57,408 nucleotides of DNA, taken from Parvularculaceae bacterium (lineage in GTDB: Bacteria > Pseudomonadota > Alphaproteobacteria > Caulobacterales > Parvularculaceae). This document shows positions 15,699 through 23,592 of this stretch, piece after piece; the stretch's first letter is position 1; each line of letters begins with the position of its first letter. Location: positions 1-57,408 of the forward strand of contig JAJFFW010000040.1 in assembly GCA_021776435.1 (NCBI GenBank). Reading direction: 5' to 3'. The position numbers and the translations under genes are program-made. The notes beneath the pieces are model-generated. The model did no database searches. It was not told the origin of the DNA and was given only the letters and a program-made list of their open reading frames with translations.

Positions 15699-16063
15699 TC
15701 CTCGAGACGCCCCTCCGCCGCTTTGTTGGCGTACTGAACAGCGATGAGCGTCGCCTTTAGAGGTTGGAGGAGAAGGAGAATGAGCGCAACGGCCACGCCA
15801 GCGCTAACAAGAAAAGCGAGCCATAACGGCGCATAAAAGACGAACCGCACGATAAAAGCGATCGCCACCGCCAGAAACCCTACAATAAAAATAACAAAGA
15901 CAGCGGGTCCGTCACCCGAATCCGCTCTCGCATAGTCAAGACCGCAAGCCTCGCACTCTGATCGTAATTTTAAATAACCGCTATAAAGCGCGCCTTGTCC
16001 GCATCGCGGACATTTACACGCTAGCCCTGCCGCATATGGCGAAATGTGGGACGTGTCAGTCAT
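15695..16063 (-). CDS. DUF983 membrane protein with zinc-ribbon
   Basis: A 122-aa protein. The N-terminus has two CxxC pairs, CKCPRCGQGALYSGYLKL and CEACGLDY, forming a zinc-ribbon-like unit. Two hydrophobic helices follow (about 52-74 and 78-100). DUF983 genes are routinely found beside ctaE/surf1 in alphaproteobacteria; the role is not established but is presumed to be in oxidase assembly. It overlaps both neighbours by ATGA junctions (16060-16063 and 15695-15698). Confidence 0.9.
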   Translation of the reverse strand: MTDTSHISPYAAGLACKCPRCGQGALYSGYLKLRSECEACGLDYARADSGDGPAVFVIFIVGFLAVAIAFIVRFVFYAPLWLAFLVSAGVAVALILLLLQPLKATLIAVQYANKAAEGRLEE

Positions 16064-16698
16064 TCCGGAGTCTGCGTAACCGGAGAAAATTCCAACCCAA
16101 TACGGTTAGAGGGCGCATCATCACCGAGATAAATCTTGGCGGCGGCCAAAGCTGCATCGAGAGTCTTTACAGAACAAACCTCGCCGCCGCTTTCAATTTC
16201 CATTTGTCCGTCCGCAACCAATTTGGTTTTTAACGCCTCCGGCAGCGCCTCACAAACTATCATAGTCATGTGTAGATTATCGTGATCCGGCTCCGCCATG
16301 AAATACATGTACCCGTCTTCATCCCCTTCACCGACCGTTTGAGCTAGATAGGCACGACGAGCCACCTTACGAAAACGGACCAACAAAGCTTCGCCGTTGT
16401 CATCGACGATACGGTAACCGCTTGATTTCTCGTAAGTAACACGCACCGCAGTACACTCGCCATCCATCTCCCCATCTTTATACGGACATGACTGATACTC
16501 CCCGGTGCGCAAAGGCGTTGCCCGACCATTCGACGCATCAAGAAGTGCAATTTCAGAAACGAGACAACCCGTCAAGAAGAAGACGGCTCCAACCGTCGTC
16601 ATACGAAATATTGGTTTCCCGAAATTCAGAGCTTTACCACGCCAAGACCGCGCCAGTACCGGTTCGCACTTAGAATATAACGAAAACTGCACTCGCAT
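16060..16698 (-). CDS. Unknown lipoprotein encoded inside the cta operon
   Basis: I do not recognise this protein. From ATG 16698 it has 212 aa. The start is set by a strong GGAGGA about 7 bases upstream; the open frame extends to 16821, but that part overlaps ctaE. A hydrophobic stretch ending FFLTGC (Cys45) is a lipobox, after an unusually long N-region of about 30 residues. A shorter start at 16602 would leave no basic N-region. The mature part of about 168 residues has cysteines in YQSCPYKDGEMDGEC, MIVCEALPE and GGEVCSVK, so disulfides are possible. It lies between ctaE and DUF983 with an ATGA overlap to the latter, so it is made with the oxidase. Confidence 0.72.
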   Translation of the reverse strand: MRVQFSLYSKCEPVLARSWRGKALNFGKPIFRMTTVGAVFFLTGCLVSEIALLDASNGRATPLRTGEYQSCPYKDGEMDGECTAVRVTYEKSSGYRIVDDNGEALLVRFRKVARRAYLAQTVGEGDEDGYMYFMAEPDHDNLHMTMIVCEALPEALKTKLVADGQMEIESGGEVCSVKTLDAALAAAKIYLGDDAPSNRIGLEFSPVTQTPE

Positions 16699-16753
16699 AA
16701 GGTCTTCCTCCGCATGAGGCGGAAAATCCGAACCGCCATGCATCGCGACCAGC

Positions 16754-17731
16754 CTACGACAGCAAGCCCTGATTTCCGAGGACATAGATAGAGGCAAAAA
16801 GAAATAGCCACACGACGTCAACGAAATGCCAATACCAGGCCGCTGCTTCCAAACCGAAATGACGGTCGGCCGTGAACTGACCTCTTATTGCACGCAAAAG
16901 GCATACGCTCAAAAAGATGGTCCCAATAATGACATGCAGCCCATGAAAGCCGGTCGCCATGAAAAACGAAGCGCCATAAATTCCACCGCCCGAGAACTTG
17001 AACATCCCGCTGGTCAACGCTTCTGTGTATTCACTCGCTTGAAGAAACGTAAAAAAGGCCCCGAGAGCGATCGTGACGGCAAGCCCCTGAACCAAACCCT
17101 TGCGGTCACCATGTTGGATGGCATGGTGCGCCCAAGTCACAGTTGTTCCTGATAAGAGCAAGACGAGCGTATTAATGAGGGGCAAGTGCCAGGCGTTCAG
17201 CGGTTCGATGCCAACGGGAGGCCACACACCTCCCGTAGCGTGAAGGCGGCCCTCGTTGCCGGTGAACGCCAAATCGCCGCTGGCGTTCAGCATCTGTGAT
17301 CCATCAGCGAGAATGACTGGATCAAAGGCGCCCGGAAACAATGCTGCCCCAAAAAATGCCCAAAACCACGCGACAAAGAACATCACCTCTGATGCAATAA
17401 ACAAAACCATGCCGTAACGCAGGCCAAGGCGCACGACGAAGGCGGTGTTCTCCCCTGTGAGGCTCTCCTTGATCACGTCACGCCACCAACCGAGCATGGT
17501 GATAAGGATGGAGCCGAGCCCGATTAGAAACAGCCAGTTCCCACCAGGGAGAGCAAAATTAGGATTGTTTTGAGCGTCGAAACCGCCAAGCATCAATCCG
17601 ACGCCGCTCTCACCTGTTTGCATCCAATTGATGGCGCCAATCGCCATCATGGCGGCGGAAATCGCTCCCACTAGAGGCCAGGGACTTGGATTGACCAAGT
17701 GGTAGTTATGTTTGACGTCGGCGCCTGCCAT
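16754..17731 (-). CDS. ctaE: Cytochrome c oxidase subunit III, with extra loops
   Basis: Subunit III of the aa3 oxidase, 325 aa with seven membrane helices, longer than the usual 260-295. Conserved blocks include GWWRDVIKES, RYGMVLFIASEVMFFVAWFW, GGVWPPVGIEPLNAWHLPL, LLSGTTVTWAHHAIQHGDR, FFMATGFHGLHVIIGTIFL and AWYWHFVDVVWLFLF. Two insertions are visible against the family: about residues 38-63 between helices 1 and 2, and about 134-166 between FGAALFP and GGVWPP. Both loops should face the periplasm. The gene follows ctaG after 99 bases. Confidence 0.96.
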   Translation of the reverse strand: MAGADVKHNYHLVNPSPWPLVGAISAAMMAIGAINWMQTGESGVGLMLGGFDAQNNPNFALPGGNWLFLIGLGSILITMLGWWRDVIKESLTGENTAFVVRLGLRYGMVLFIASEVMFFVAWFWAFFGAALFPGAFDPVILADGSQMLNASGDLAFTGNEGRLHATGGVWPPVGIEPLNAWHLPLINTLVLLLSGTTVTWAHHAIQHGDRKGLVQGLAVTIALGAFFTFLQASEYTEALTSGMFKFSGGGIYGASFFMATGFHGLHVIIGTIFLSVCLLRAIRGQFTADRHFGLEAAAWYWHFVDVVWLFLFASIYVLGNQGLLS

Positions 17732-19970: not shown

Positions 19971-20330
19971 CTAATCGCGGAATATCAGCGACTTACCGCC
20001 GAATAAAACCGACACGGCCACCGCAAATACGACAAAATAACCAACGAATGTGAGACCTGACGTTGCCATCATCGTAGCCCAGCCTGTTTCCAGTTGGCCG
20101 AGCCAGATTTGTGGATCGGTCGGAGCCGCACTCGTAGCGCCGCCATATACGATCTGCACTAATGCAAAAATCAACATTGCTACAACGCTGACGCCAAACA
20201 GTTGGCCGAGATTGCGCATCATAAATGCACCAATAACGGCCACACCGACGACCATGGCCAGGTTAATCCAATCGCCACCGAGAAATACTCCCCGCGCGAA
20301 ACCTAAAAGATCAGATACTATCACTTCCAT
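19971..20330 (-). CDS. Membrane protein of unknown function in the cta cluster
   Basis: I do not recognise this protein. From ATG 20330, chosen because AGAGGGG lies about 8 bases upstream, it has 119 aa (the open frame reaches 20384). Three hydrophobic segments are visible: about 22-38 (WINLAMVVGVAVIGAFMM), 46-60 and 93-110 (GYFVVFAVAVSVLFGG). No cysteines or obvious ligands. It lies between ctaD and ctaB on the same strand, separated from ctaD by a terminator, so it is probably transcribed separately. Confidence 0.65.
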   Translation of the reverse strand: MEVIVSDLLGFARGVFLGGDWINLAMVVGVAVIGAFMMRNLGQLFGVSVVAMLIFALVQIVYGGATSAAPTDPQIWLGQLETGWATMMATSGLTFVGYFVVFAVAVSVLFGGKSLIFRD

Positions 20331-20430
20331 CGAAACCGCCCCTCTTTCATTCATTGGTTCCCCTATGACAAAAGTTAACGACATTTAACGCTTTTCGTCA
20401 CGCTGCAATGCAGCATTTCTATGCGTTTTT

Positions 20431-20491: not shown

Positions 20492-22165
20492 TTAAAATGC
20501 CTTGGCGTCGTCCGTATCAAAGCGCGGCAATTCATTGAATTGGTGGAAAGGCGGTGGAGAGGGAAGTGTCCATTCAAGCGTTGTTGCGCCGACACCCCAG
20601 GGATTCGCATCAGCCTTGCGACGATAAAAGAAAAATGCATCGATCATGCACACAACGAAAACGACGACACCAAATGCTGTAACGAGATAGCCGATTGTCG
20701 AGAGCTGATTCCAATACGTATAAGCTTCTGGATAATCGACAATTCGACGGGGCATCCCCTGAAGGCCGAGGAAATGCTGTGGGAAAAAGACGAGATTAAC
20801 GCCCACAAACATAAAAACGAAATGCAGATTTCCCAACCATTCACGATAGAGCTTTCCGGTCATTTTGGGGAACCAATAATACCATCCCGCAAATATGGCG
20901 AAGACAGCGCCCAAGGACATCGTGTAATGGAAGTGTGCGACAACATAATAGGTATCGTGCATGTAGTGATCGACACCTGCATTGGCGAGCACAACCCCCG
21001 TCACTCCACCGAGGGTAAACACGAAAATAAACCCGATCGCCCAGATCATCGGTGTTCTGAATTCAATCGAGCCGCCCCACATTGTGGCAATCCATGAGAA
21101 GATCTTAATGCCGGTTGGCACTGCGATGACCATCGTCGCGGCGACAAAATAGGCCTTCATGTTCACTGAAAGACCCACCGTATACATATGGTGCGCCCAG
21201 ACAATAAACCCTACAAAGCCAATCGCAACCATCGCATAGGCCATGCCGAGATAGCCAAAGATCGGTTTTTTGGAAAATGTCGAAACAATGTGCGAGATGA
21301 GACCGAAACCGGGTAAGATAAGAATATAAACTTCGGGATGACCGAAGAACCAGAACAAATGCTGAAAGAGCAACGGATCTCCGCCCTGGGCTGAATCAAA
21401 AAACGCGGTGCCAAAATTTCGATCAGTAAGCAACATTGTGATCGCGCCCGCCAACACGGGCAATGACAGGACGAGAAGAAACGCCGTCACCAACACCGAC
21501 CAGACAAAAAGCGGCATCTTGTGCAGCGTCATACCAGGGGCGCGCATGTTGAAGATGGTCGTGATAAAATTGATGGCGCCAAGAATAGAAGACGCGCCGG
21601 CCAGATGAATCGCCAGAATCAAAAAGTCCATTGCCGGCCCGGGGCTGCCCACGGTTGACGACAGCGGCGGATAAAGAACCCAACCACCGGCAAATCCTAA
21701 TTGCTGGGCATATCCTGGCGATAAAAGCGACAGTGTTACGAGCACACCAGACGCAACGTAAAGCCAAAATGATATATTATTCATCCGTGGAAACGCCATG
21801 TCCGGCGCACCAATCATGATGGGCACAAACCAATTCCCGAAACCACCAATCAACGCTGGCATGACCATAAAGAAGATCATCATCAGGCCATGATAGGTAA
21901 TGAGGACATTATAAAAATTGGAAGCAGCAACAATCTGCGCTTCTGGCGGTAAGTTTTGATCCGTAAACGCAGTGAGAAAAGTGATACCAGGTTCAGCGAG
22001 TTCCATCCGAATCAGACCTGACATCGCACCGCCAGCAATACCGGCAATGATTGCGAGAATCAGATAAAGCGTCCCAATGTCCTTGTGGTTCGTCGAGTAA
22101 AACCAGCGCACAAAAAAGGGCGGCTGATGATCGTGATCTGCGTGAGCAGCGTGAGCGTCTGACAT
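20492..22165 (-). CDS. ctaD: Cytochrome c oxidase subunit I
   Basis: Catalytic subunit of the aa3 oxidase, 557 aa with twelve helices; it holds heme a and the heme a3-CuB site. Diagnostic blocks: [20 protein letters not shown], the cross-linked His-Tyr segment [17 protein letters not shown], the CuB histidine pair in WAHHMYTVG, and [15 protein letters not shown] with the heme ligands. The N-terminus has a His-rich stretch (AHAADHDHQ-like) before the first helix. It lies 18 bases after ctaC and is followed by a strong terminator. Confidence 0.98.
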
Positions 22166-22183: not shown

Positions 22184-23356
22184 TTATTTTTTATCAGCGT
22201 CAGCGCGGATCTGCGCAAGTTTGACGTCATCTTGAAACATAGGCTCAAGCCCTGCGAGCGCACGTTGTTTGTTTATCCAGATTTCAAACTCCTGACGTGA
22301 AACAACTTCGACTGCAATAGGCATAAAAGAATGCCGGGTGCCGCAAAGCTCCGAACATTGCCCATAATATATGCCTTCACGCTCAACGTTGAACCAGACC
22401 TCATTAATGCGCCCGGGCACTGCGTCAATCTTGATCGCAAACTGGGGAACCGCCCAAGCATGAATAACGTCCGAGGCGGTCACAGTGACGCGAATTGTTT
22501 CTCCAACTGGCACGACGATGCGATTATCGACTTCGAACATAAAATCCTCAGGTGTCGTTTTCTCTTCAACCTGCATGTTCGAGAAGAAATCAAAATCACC
22601 AAAGTCAGGATAAGCGTAATTCCAATTCCACTGATTTCCAGTCACCTTGAGCGTCATTGAGGGCGCTAGCACAACTTGCTTTTCACAAATGTCGAAATAG
22701 CGCTTAAAAGCTGCGCAATTGGAACCGTTCTGCGTTGCGCGACCACCGCGGATCAACACTTGTTCGCCCATGGCCGGAGCCGACTTCAACGAAACCTTGA
22801 CTTCAGGATCACCGAACCCTTTGACGGAGTAATCCTCTTTATATTTGAGAGACCGCAACCCGGCAGGTGAGGATATCAAAACCTGCAGGTGGCTGGACCG
22901 CTTCACTTGACGGCTCTGGGGGAAATCATTCTCAAAAATGAATTCAGTGGTCGCCCCGTCGGCCTCGGCGACCACCTGTTTACCATCCGGCACAACATCT
23001 TCTTTGTAGAGCAAGTCGAATGACGGGAGCGCAATCACCAGTAGAATCAGGATTGGTATGCCGGTCCAGATTACCTCCAGCAACGTGTTGTGACTGAACT
23101 TTTTTGGAGTCGGATTGGCTTTGGAATTAAAGCGCACCATCACCCAGACGAGCAGCCCCAACACAAACAAACTGATGATCGTGATAATGGGCATCAGCAC
23201 AACATTGTGGAAAAAATGAACCTGCTCAGCCATCGCCGTAGCAGGTGGCAACATGCCAATCCCTCCTACCACAGGCTTAGCCAATGATGATCCCACTGTG
23301 GCGCCCACAATTGAGAGCGTAGCGAATAAGTTTTTTGCCGTGGATAACCGCGTCAT
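22184..23356 (-). CDS. ctaC: Cytochrome c oxidase subunit II, with a large insertion
   Basis: Subunit II accepts electrons from cytochrome c at the CuA centre. I chose ATG 23356 (390 aa), which gives a signal peptide (MTRLSTAKNLFATLSIVGA) with GGGGA 5 bases upstream; the open frame runs on to 23578 without family resemblance. Two membrane helices follow (about 50-75 and 92-115). The CuA domain has QWNWNYAYPD, DVIHAWAVP and CSELCGTRHSFMP with all ligands. Between YKEDVVPDGKQ and MTLKVTGNQW there are about 100 extra residues (134-233), including a cysteine pair (C214, C224). Normal relatives have only a short link here. Confidence 0.96.
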   Translation of the reverse strand: MTRLSTAKNLFATLSIVGATVGSSLAKPVVGGIGMLPPATAMAEQVHFFHNVVLMPIITIISLFVLGLLVWVMVRFNSKANPTPKKFSHNTLLEVIWTGIPILILLVIALPSFDLLYKEDVVPDGKQVVAEADGATTEFIFENDFPQSRQVKRSSHLQVLISSPAGLRSLKYKEDYSVKGFGDPEVKVSLKSAPAMGEQVLIRGGRATQNGSNCAAFKRYFDICEKQVVLAPSMTLKVTGNQWNWNYAYPDFGDFDFFSNMQVEEKTTPEDFMFEVDNRIVVPVGETIRVTVTASDVIHAWAVPQFAIKIDAVPGRINEVWFNVEREGIYYGQCSELCGTRHSFMPIAVEVVSRQEFEIWINKQRALAGLEPMFQDDVKLAQIRADADKK

Positions 23357-23592
23357 GAATCCCCGCATCGTTAAGAGCGCTTGTCGCCAATAGTCCAGCC
23401 TCGCCAGACGCCGCCGTCGATACGCCGTATGGCCCAATGAGGTCAATTTTTTTCGCGCATGCTTATAAAACGGACTGCAATCTTTCGTCATCGGCCAAAT
23501 AAGGGATAAAAGGTCGCAGGCGCAGGAAACTGATGTTTGGGCGTCAAATATCGGCCGGATGCATTCCAATACGGCCATCCGTCTGCTAGCTG

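Follow-up and report, generated by a model that had tools for sequence, protein, structure and literature searches.

An insertion found throughout the Parvularculaceae in cytochrome c oxidase subunit II, probably related to the domain by which phage tail fibres attach to the virion

Few proteins of aerobic organisms are as conserved as subunit II of cytochrome c oxidase (COX2), yet insertions or splits at the junction of its membrane part and its CuA domain are recurrent, with an origin and a role that are unexplained. The ctaC gene of a Parvularculaceae bacterium, present in the window analysed in this study (the whole stretch of 57,408 nucleotides of contig JAJFFW010000040.1), encodes a subunit with approximately 110 extra residues at this junction, between the second membrane helix and the CuA domain. 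The locus raises the question of how widely this segment is shared, where it came from and what it might do in the oxidase. The features of the gene are as follows:

22187..23356, minus strand: ctaC, cytochrome c oxidase subunit II, 390 aa, with its ATG at 23356
23012..23266, minus strand: COX2_TM, the two membrane helices, residues 31-115 (Pfam PF02790, E 6.9e-21, above cut-off)
22661..22990, minus strand: family-specific insertion, approximately residues 123-232, from comparison with insert-free subunits
22736..22993, minus strand: predicted beta-sandwich like the N-terminal domains of phage tail fibres, approximately residues 122-207, with seven strands in the model
22658..22735, minus strand: variable linker from the beta-sandwich to the CuA domain, holding C214 and C224
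22301..22657, minus strand: CuA domain, residues 234-352, with complete ligands (Pfam PF00116, E 8.1e-47)

CtaC was identified as CoxB by NCBIfam TIGR02866, with 189.6 bits against a cut-off of 147.7. An alternative in-frame start is present upstream at 23578, from which a protein of 464 aa would be made. The CuA motif is complete (C334-SEL-C338-GTR-H342-SF-M345), and the upstream histidine (H299) and the tryptophan of the GNQW sequence (W243) are both present, the latter at the start of the CuA domain and about 11 residues past the end of the insert. With these ligands intact, and with both helices covered by the Pfam COX2_TM match, the suggestion of an earlier note that the segment was added to a working subunit was borne out. 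That note had placed the segment at 22658-22957 (minus strand), which does correspond to CtaC residues 134-233; alignment to insert-free subunits from four other families of the order set the edges at about 123-232. A sequencing artefact or frameshift was rejected as the origin of the insert, as the reading frame was open in all family sequences examined.

A search profile was made from an alignment of 26 inserts (alignment A1). With this profile the insert was detected in 57 of 62 Parvularculaceae genomes, including all 42 near-complete ones and all nine genera, which is far beyond chance and confirms that the insertion, extra relative to insert-free subunits, is real. In the order-wide scan, the 47 insert-positive genomes were all Parvularculaceae, and none was found among approximately 199 genomes of other families. 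The insert-free subunits of sister families suggest that the junction can function in its absence. Neither did the profile search recover a COX2 with the insert outside the Parvularculaceae in 289 genomes of the class or 398 genomes of the phylum. When full-length CtaC was used as the query, all of the family relatives that were matched covered the insert, whereas matches from outside the family broke at that point; a protein search of the genome contigs with CtaC returned one relative, which was insert-free. The insert is thus not peculiar to this genome. As the whole family carries it, it is an old trait of the Parvularculaceae instead of a local oddity, and on this point the earlier note was wrong or went too far.

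The insert is under purifying selection. Across ten pairs of close relatives its dN/dS ranged from 0.02 to 0.28, which is comparable with the CuA domain or somewhat higher, and a set of residues is near-invariant (P123, D124, N143, F145, R149, H156, G205, R206 and P232), with the N-D-F motif lost in one family member, L037. The tree of the insert and the tree of the remaining protein contained largely the same well-supported groups, although support deep in the insert tree was poor. This is what is expected from one old insertion followed by vertical descent. On the basis of distribution, dN/dS and the structural models described below, the segment is a folded and selected domain and not a disordered loop.

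The two cysteines to which attention had been drawn are numbered correctly as C214 and C224 (codons starting at 22717 and 22687), but they turned out not to be a hallmark of the insert. Of 45 distinct family sequences, 13 had the pair, always as both residues and with fixed spacing, and approximately six changes on the tree are required to account for the trait. As the pair lies past the GGR motif, within the variable linker that follows the domain, and occurs in those 13 sequences only, the cysteines do not define the domain, and the idea of a cysteine-defined domain was rejected. In the members that have them, the cysteines may staple the linker; what was observed in relation to the periplasmic disulfide proposed in the earlier note is their constant spacing and the fact that they are gained or missing together.

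The relationship of the insert to phage proteins, which the earlier note had missed, emerged solely with profiles. The insert of the window alone had no match in Pfam, PHROGs or NCBIfam, a tblastn search of phage genomes with the insert found nothing, and no Pfam family scored above its cut-off on any insert scanned. One relative's insert matched PF03906 (Phage_T7_tail) at E 0.24, with 11.5 bits against a cut-off of 25.2, and so fell short of the Pfam threshold. When the insert profile was searched against PDB sequences, the best match was the Carin-1 tailspike Dpo31, albeit at E 0.14. A six-frame search of the 289 class genomes with the same profile gave five weak matches outside the family; the protein was recovered for four of these, and all four were N-termini of tail fibres or tailspikes, aligned in register. 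The scan of the 398 phylum genomes added one match, again to an N-terminus of the tail-fibre type.

Profile-profile comparison by hhalign was performed between the insert and 14 tail-fibre N-termini drawn from annotated phage genome records, the phage sequences for comparison having been reached via queries that the insert profile itself had found. The probability was 96% with a score of 53; the highest score reached by 150 column shuffles was 17, and the reversed profile scored 15. With a second set of phage sequences, taken from viral contigs, the probability was 97%, and the CuA domain, used as a negative control, gave 2%. In the reciprocal direction, an HMM made solely from the second phage set detected the insert of the window (E 1.2e-6 for a proteome of 4000), and E was below 1 for 40 of the 45 inserts, with zero matches among 900 shuffled and 45 reversed insert sequences. 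Inserts and phage sequences share a linear motif of about 72 columns (DGxTTxFxF ... HLxVxxxxxG ... DYxVxGxG ... VxLxxAPAxGExVxIR), with approximately 13-31% identity. The phage domains concerned belong to phrog_1640 and its relatives and are close to the family that Pfam defines for the N-terminus of the T7 tail fibre.

Two structure predictions bear on the fold. From the window sequence alone, AlphaFold2 produced a low-confidence beta-sandwich (pLDDT 55), for which the best matches among viral structures were largely phage tail proteins, including tail fibres and tailspikes. Against the PDB, generic Ig-like folds dominated for this alignment-free model, and the phage fibre 8ck1_B ranked 11th with Z 5.1. 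The generic Ig-like and unrelated PDB folds that Foldseek and VIA returned, such as the archaellum protein FlaG in the top VIA rows (Z 7.0), were not counted in favour of any of those families. With 31 phage homologues from viral contigs in the alignment, a confident core was obtained, in which 49 residues had a pLDDT of at least 90. In the VIA-align ranking of this model, the first ten PDB entries were all podovirus tail-fibre or tail-complex chains (8ck1, LME-1, T7 gp17 and others). The match to 8ck1_B, from Carin-1, had Z 11.0 and an rmsd of 1.8 Å over 78 residues with 26% identity, that to T7 gp17 had Z 8.7 and an rmsd of 2.2 Å over 70, and Foldseek likewise placed 8ck1_B first. Because phage sequences went into the alignment behind this second model, its agreement with phage structures carries no independent weight and serves as a consistency check instead of proof.

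The conserved part of the insert is thus very probably an approximately 80-residue beta-sandwich homologous to the N-terminal domain of phage tail fibres. The closest known counterpart is the domain that attaches the tail fibres and tailspikes of podoviruses to the virion (PF03906; phrog_1640 and relatives; domain D1 of Carin-1 Dpo31, 8ck1; the N-terminus of T7 gp17, 7boz), with which the insert shares the linear motif and, in the models, a beta-sandwich of this length. In Carin-1, domain D1 (residues 8-87) is a beta-sandwich that joins the tailspike to the phage tail (PMC13317679). In phage fibres the domain is N-terminal in a virion protein, whereas the insert is internal to a membrane-anchored respiratory subunit. 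The helical stalk that follows the domain in phage fibres (TQxTDY...HExALDKLTML) is missing from the insert, which has the variable linker instead. Two further features set the insert apart from the phage domain: additional residues around N-D-F-x-x-S-R, and a G-R-S motif at its end.

The operon was also inspected for other parts specific to the family. Its order is ctaC, ctaD, a gene for a 137-aa protein, ctaB, ctaG, ctaE, a gene for a 253-aa protein, one for a DUF983-like small protein (assigned by eye) and SURF1, and the genes considered here are:

20492..22165, minus strand: ctaD, oxidase subunit I (COX1, 534.8 bits)
19971..20384, minus strand: 137-aa membrane-type protein with no Pfam match, between ctaD and ctaB
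16754..17731, minus strand: ctaE, oxidase subunit III, with a longer family-specific loop between helices 3 and 4
16060-16821, minus strand: 253-aa protein with no Pfam match, downstream of ctaE in the oxidase operon

The two helices and the CuA ligands of subunit II, and an operon with ctaD, ctaB, ctaG, ctaE and SURF1, are shared with the canonical alphaproteobacterial aa3 oxidase (CoxB/CtaC), from which this one differs by the approximately 110 extra CtaC residues, the longer subunit III loop and the extra gene for a small membrane protein. The loop between helices 3 and 4 is conserved in the family (ALFPGAxDPVxLADGTQMLNANGxPAFLGNDxRxHATG) and longer than in other families; we take it, from the established topology, to lie on the periplasmic face. 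Relatives of the 137-aa protein were found in 25 of 31 Parvularculaceae genomes and in none of 20 others, and in all 13 cases from genera g1, g2, g4 and g6 in which the two genes shared a contig, it lay 2.2-3.1 kb from ctaC. Some genomes had two nearby copies of this gene. The protein is possibly an extra oxidase subunit or a partner of the insert. The co-occurrence of the insert, the subunit III loop and the 137-aa protein suggests a remodelled complex, although any old branch collects such traits.

The explanation that we favour, with moderate confidence when taken as a whole, is that a phage adaptor domain was captured in a single ancestral insertion and descended vertically as a periplasmic docking or bracing module. 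The virion-attachment domain of a podovirus tail fibre or tailspike would have been placed once in subunit II, in the ancestor of the Parvularculaceae, at the junction of the membrane part and the CuA domain, and would have been inherited vertically ever since. The beta-sandwich alone would have been kept and the helical stalk of the phage protein lost. The phage domain is a passive connector that seats the fibre in its socket; in the oxidase it would most likely serve, next to the CuA domain, as a fixed module for docking or bracing, with the redox chemistry untouched. The putative partner held by the insert might be the enlarged subunit III loop, the small membrane protein specific to the family or a different complex of the respiratory chain. 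Docking or bracing is the most economical reading because the connector was kept, the stalk is missing, both ends are anchored, and there is neither a recognised catalytic motif nor a constant charge. The earlier proposal of a binding domain is also plausible, the more so since the domain matches the attachment domain of tail fibres. The direction of transfer, the docking role and the partner, proposed jointly, are tentative. That the captured adaptor became a docking platform which, with the subunit III loop and the small membrane subunit, makes up a remodelled aa3 oxidase is possible but somewhat doubtful.

Two other accounts of the origin were weighed. Short beta-sandwiches might have converged on the phage likeness with no common descent, and the low identity, the abundance of beta-sandwiches in general and the generic Ig-like matches of the alignment-free model would all agree with this. 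It is nevertheless very unlikely, given the shared linear motif over about 72 columns, the profile probability of 96% with its shuffle controls, the reciprocal HMM detection, and the lead of tail-fibre N-termini over other beta-sandwich families in the matches of the phage-homologue model. The donor might instead have been the gene transfer agent (GTA) of the host, through the C-terminal part of its DUF2460 distal-tail protein (PF09343), to which the insert has a similarity that is weak but above shuffles, in a different protein context. Four of the inserts matched DUF2460 without reaching its Pfam cut-off (E 4.6e-4 at best), the DUF2460 gene is present in 26 of 31 family genomes, and profile comparison gave a probability of 56% against 5% or less in shuffles. 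The match to tail-fibre N-termini was clearly stronger (96%, with a score of 53 against 32), and tail-fibre N-termini are also related to the GTA domain (81%), so that the match between the insert and DUF2460 may be indirect; a GTA donor has a slim chance of being correct.

The role of the insert could also be read differently. Cytochrome c binds the periplasmic face of COX2, and the insert, which ends about 11 residues before the entry tryptophan W243, might be an electron-donor docking element that helps to bind or select the cytochrome c of the family. The net charge of the insert varies from approximately +3 to -10 within the family, which disfavours a conserved electrostatic docking surface and rules out a conserved acidic cytochrome c patch, and the most conserved positions (N143, F145, R149, H156, G205 and R206) form no acidic patch; this role is unlikely. 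A more neutral possibility is that the insert is a spacer tolerated at a hot spot, with no role beyond folding well and not interfering. In the text available from two reports (PMC5695614, PMC5374615), in-frame insertions or gene splits at the junction of the COX2 membrane part and CuA domain are described in brown algae, ciliates and an insect (Hymenoptera), where they arose independently, and insertions at this junction in bacteria are mentioned in the second of these, so that the junction is, as far as these sources go, a known insertion hot spot. The different insert at the same junction in another family of the order (see below) agrees with a spacer as well. Against this stand the absence of any loss in 42 near-complete family genomes, the low dN/dS and the invariant residues, and a mere spacer is rather improbable.

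In the available text of the same reports, the mitochondrial cox2 inserts resemble the CtaC insert in their position, their conservation, their restriction to particular lineages and the retention of the CuA domain (PMC5695614, PMC5374615). Those of algae and ciliates are larger (cox2 genes of approximately 1.7-3.9 kb) and no recognised fold is stated for them there, whereas the CtaC insert is compact and has a phage relative. A search of the literature on Parvularculaceae and cytochrome c oxidase yielded nothing related, and, as far as the searches went, the phage-domain identity of a COX2 junction insert appears to be new. What is new here, within the same searches, is both the recognisable phage-adaptor identity and the conservation across an entire bacterial family. 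The favoured capture of a phage adaptor suggests that a viral connector has been reused inside the respiratory chain, and would make the insert a concrete example of how structural parts of viruses can be put to new use in core energy metabolism. A junction insert can here be traced to a structurally solved domain type and is kept by selection across a whole family, and the role of a junction insert becomes testable by deletion.

Two further observations were made during the searches. Sequences L049-L051, from another family of the same order (f2), carry a different and shorter insert of approximately 25-30 residues at the same COX2 junction. In one genome (G029), a gene at L115:400-2994 (minus strand) encodes an 865-aa protein with no Pfam match and with a weak second copy of the beta domain, and the domain may therefore occur in another protein of the family too.
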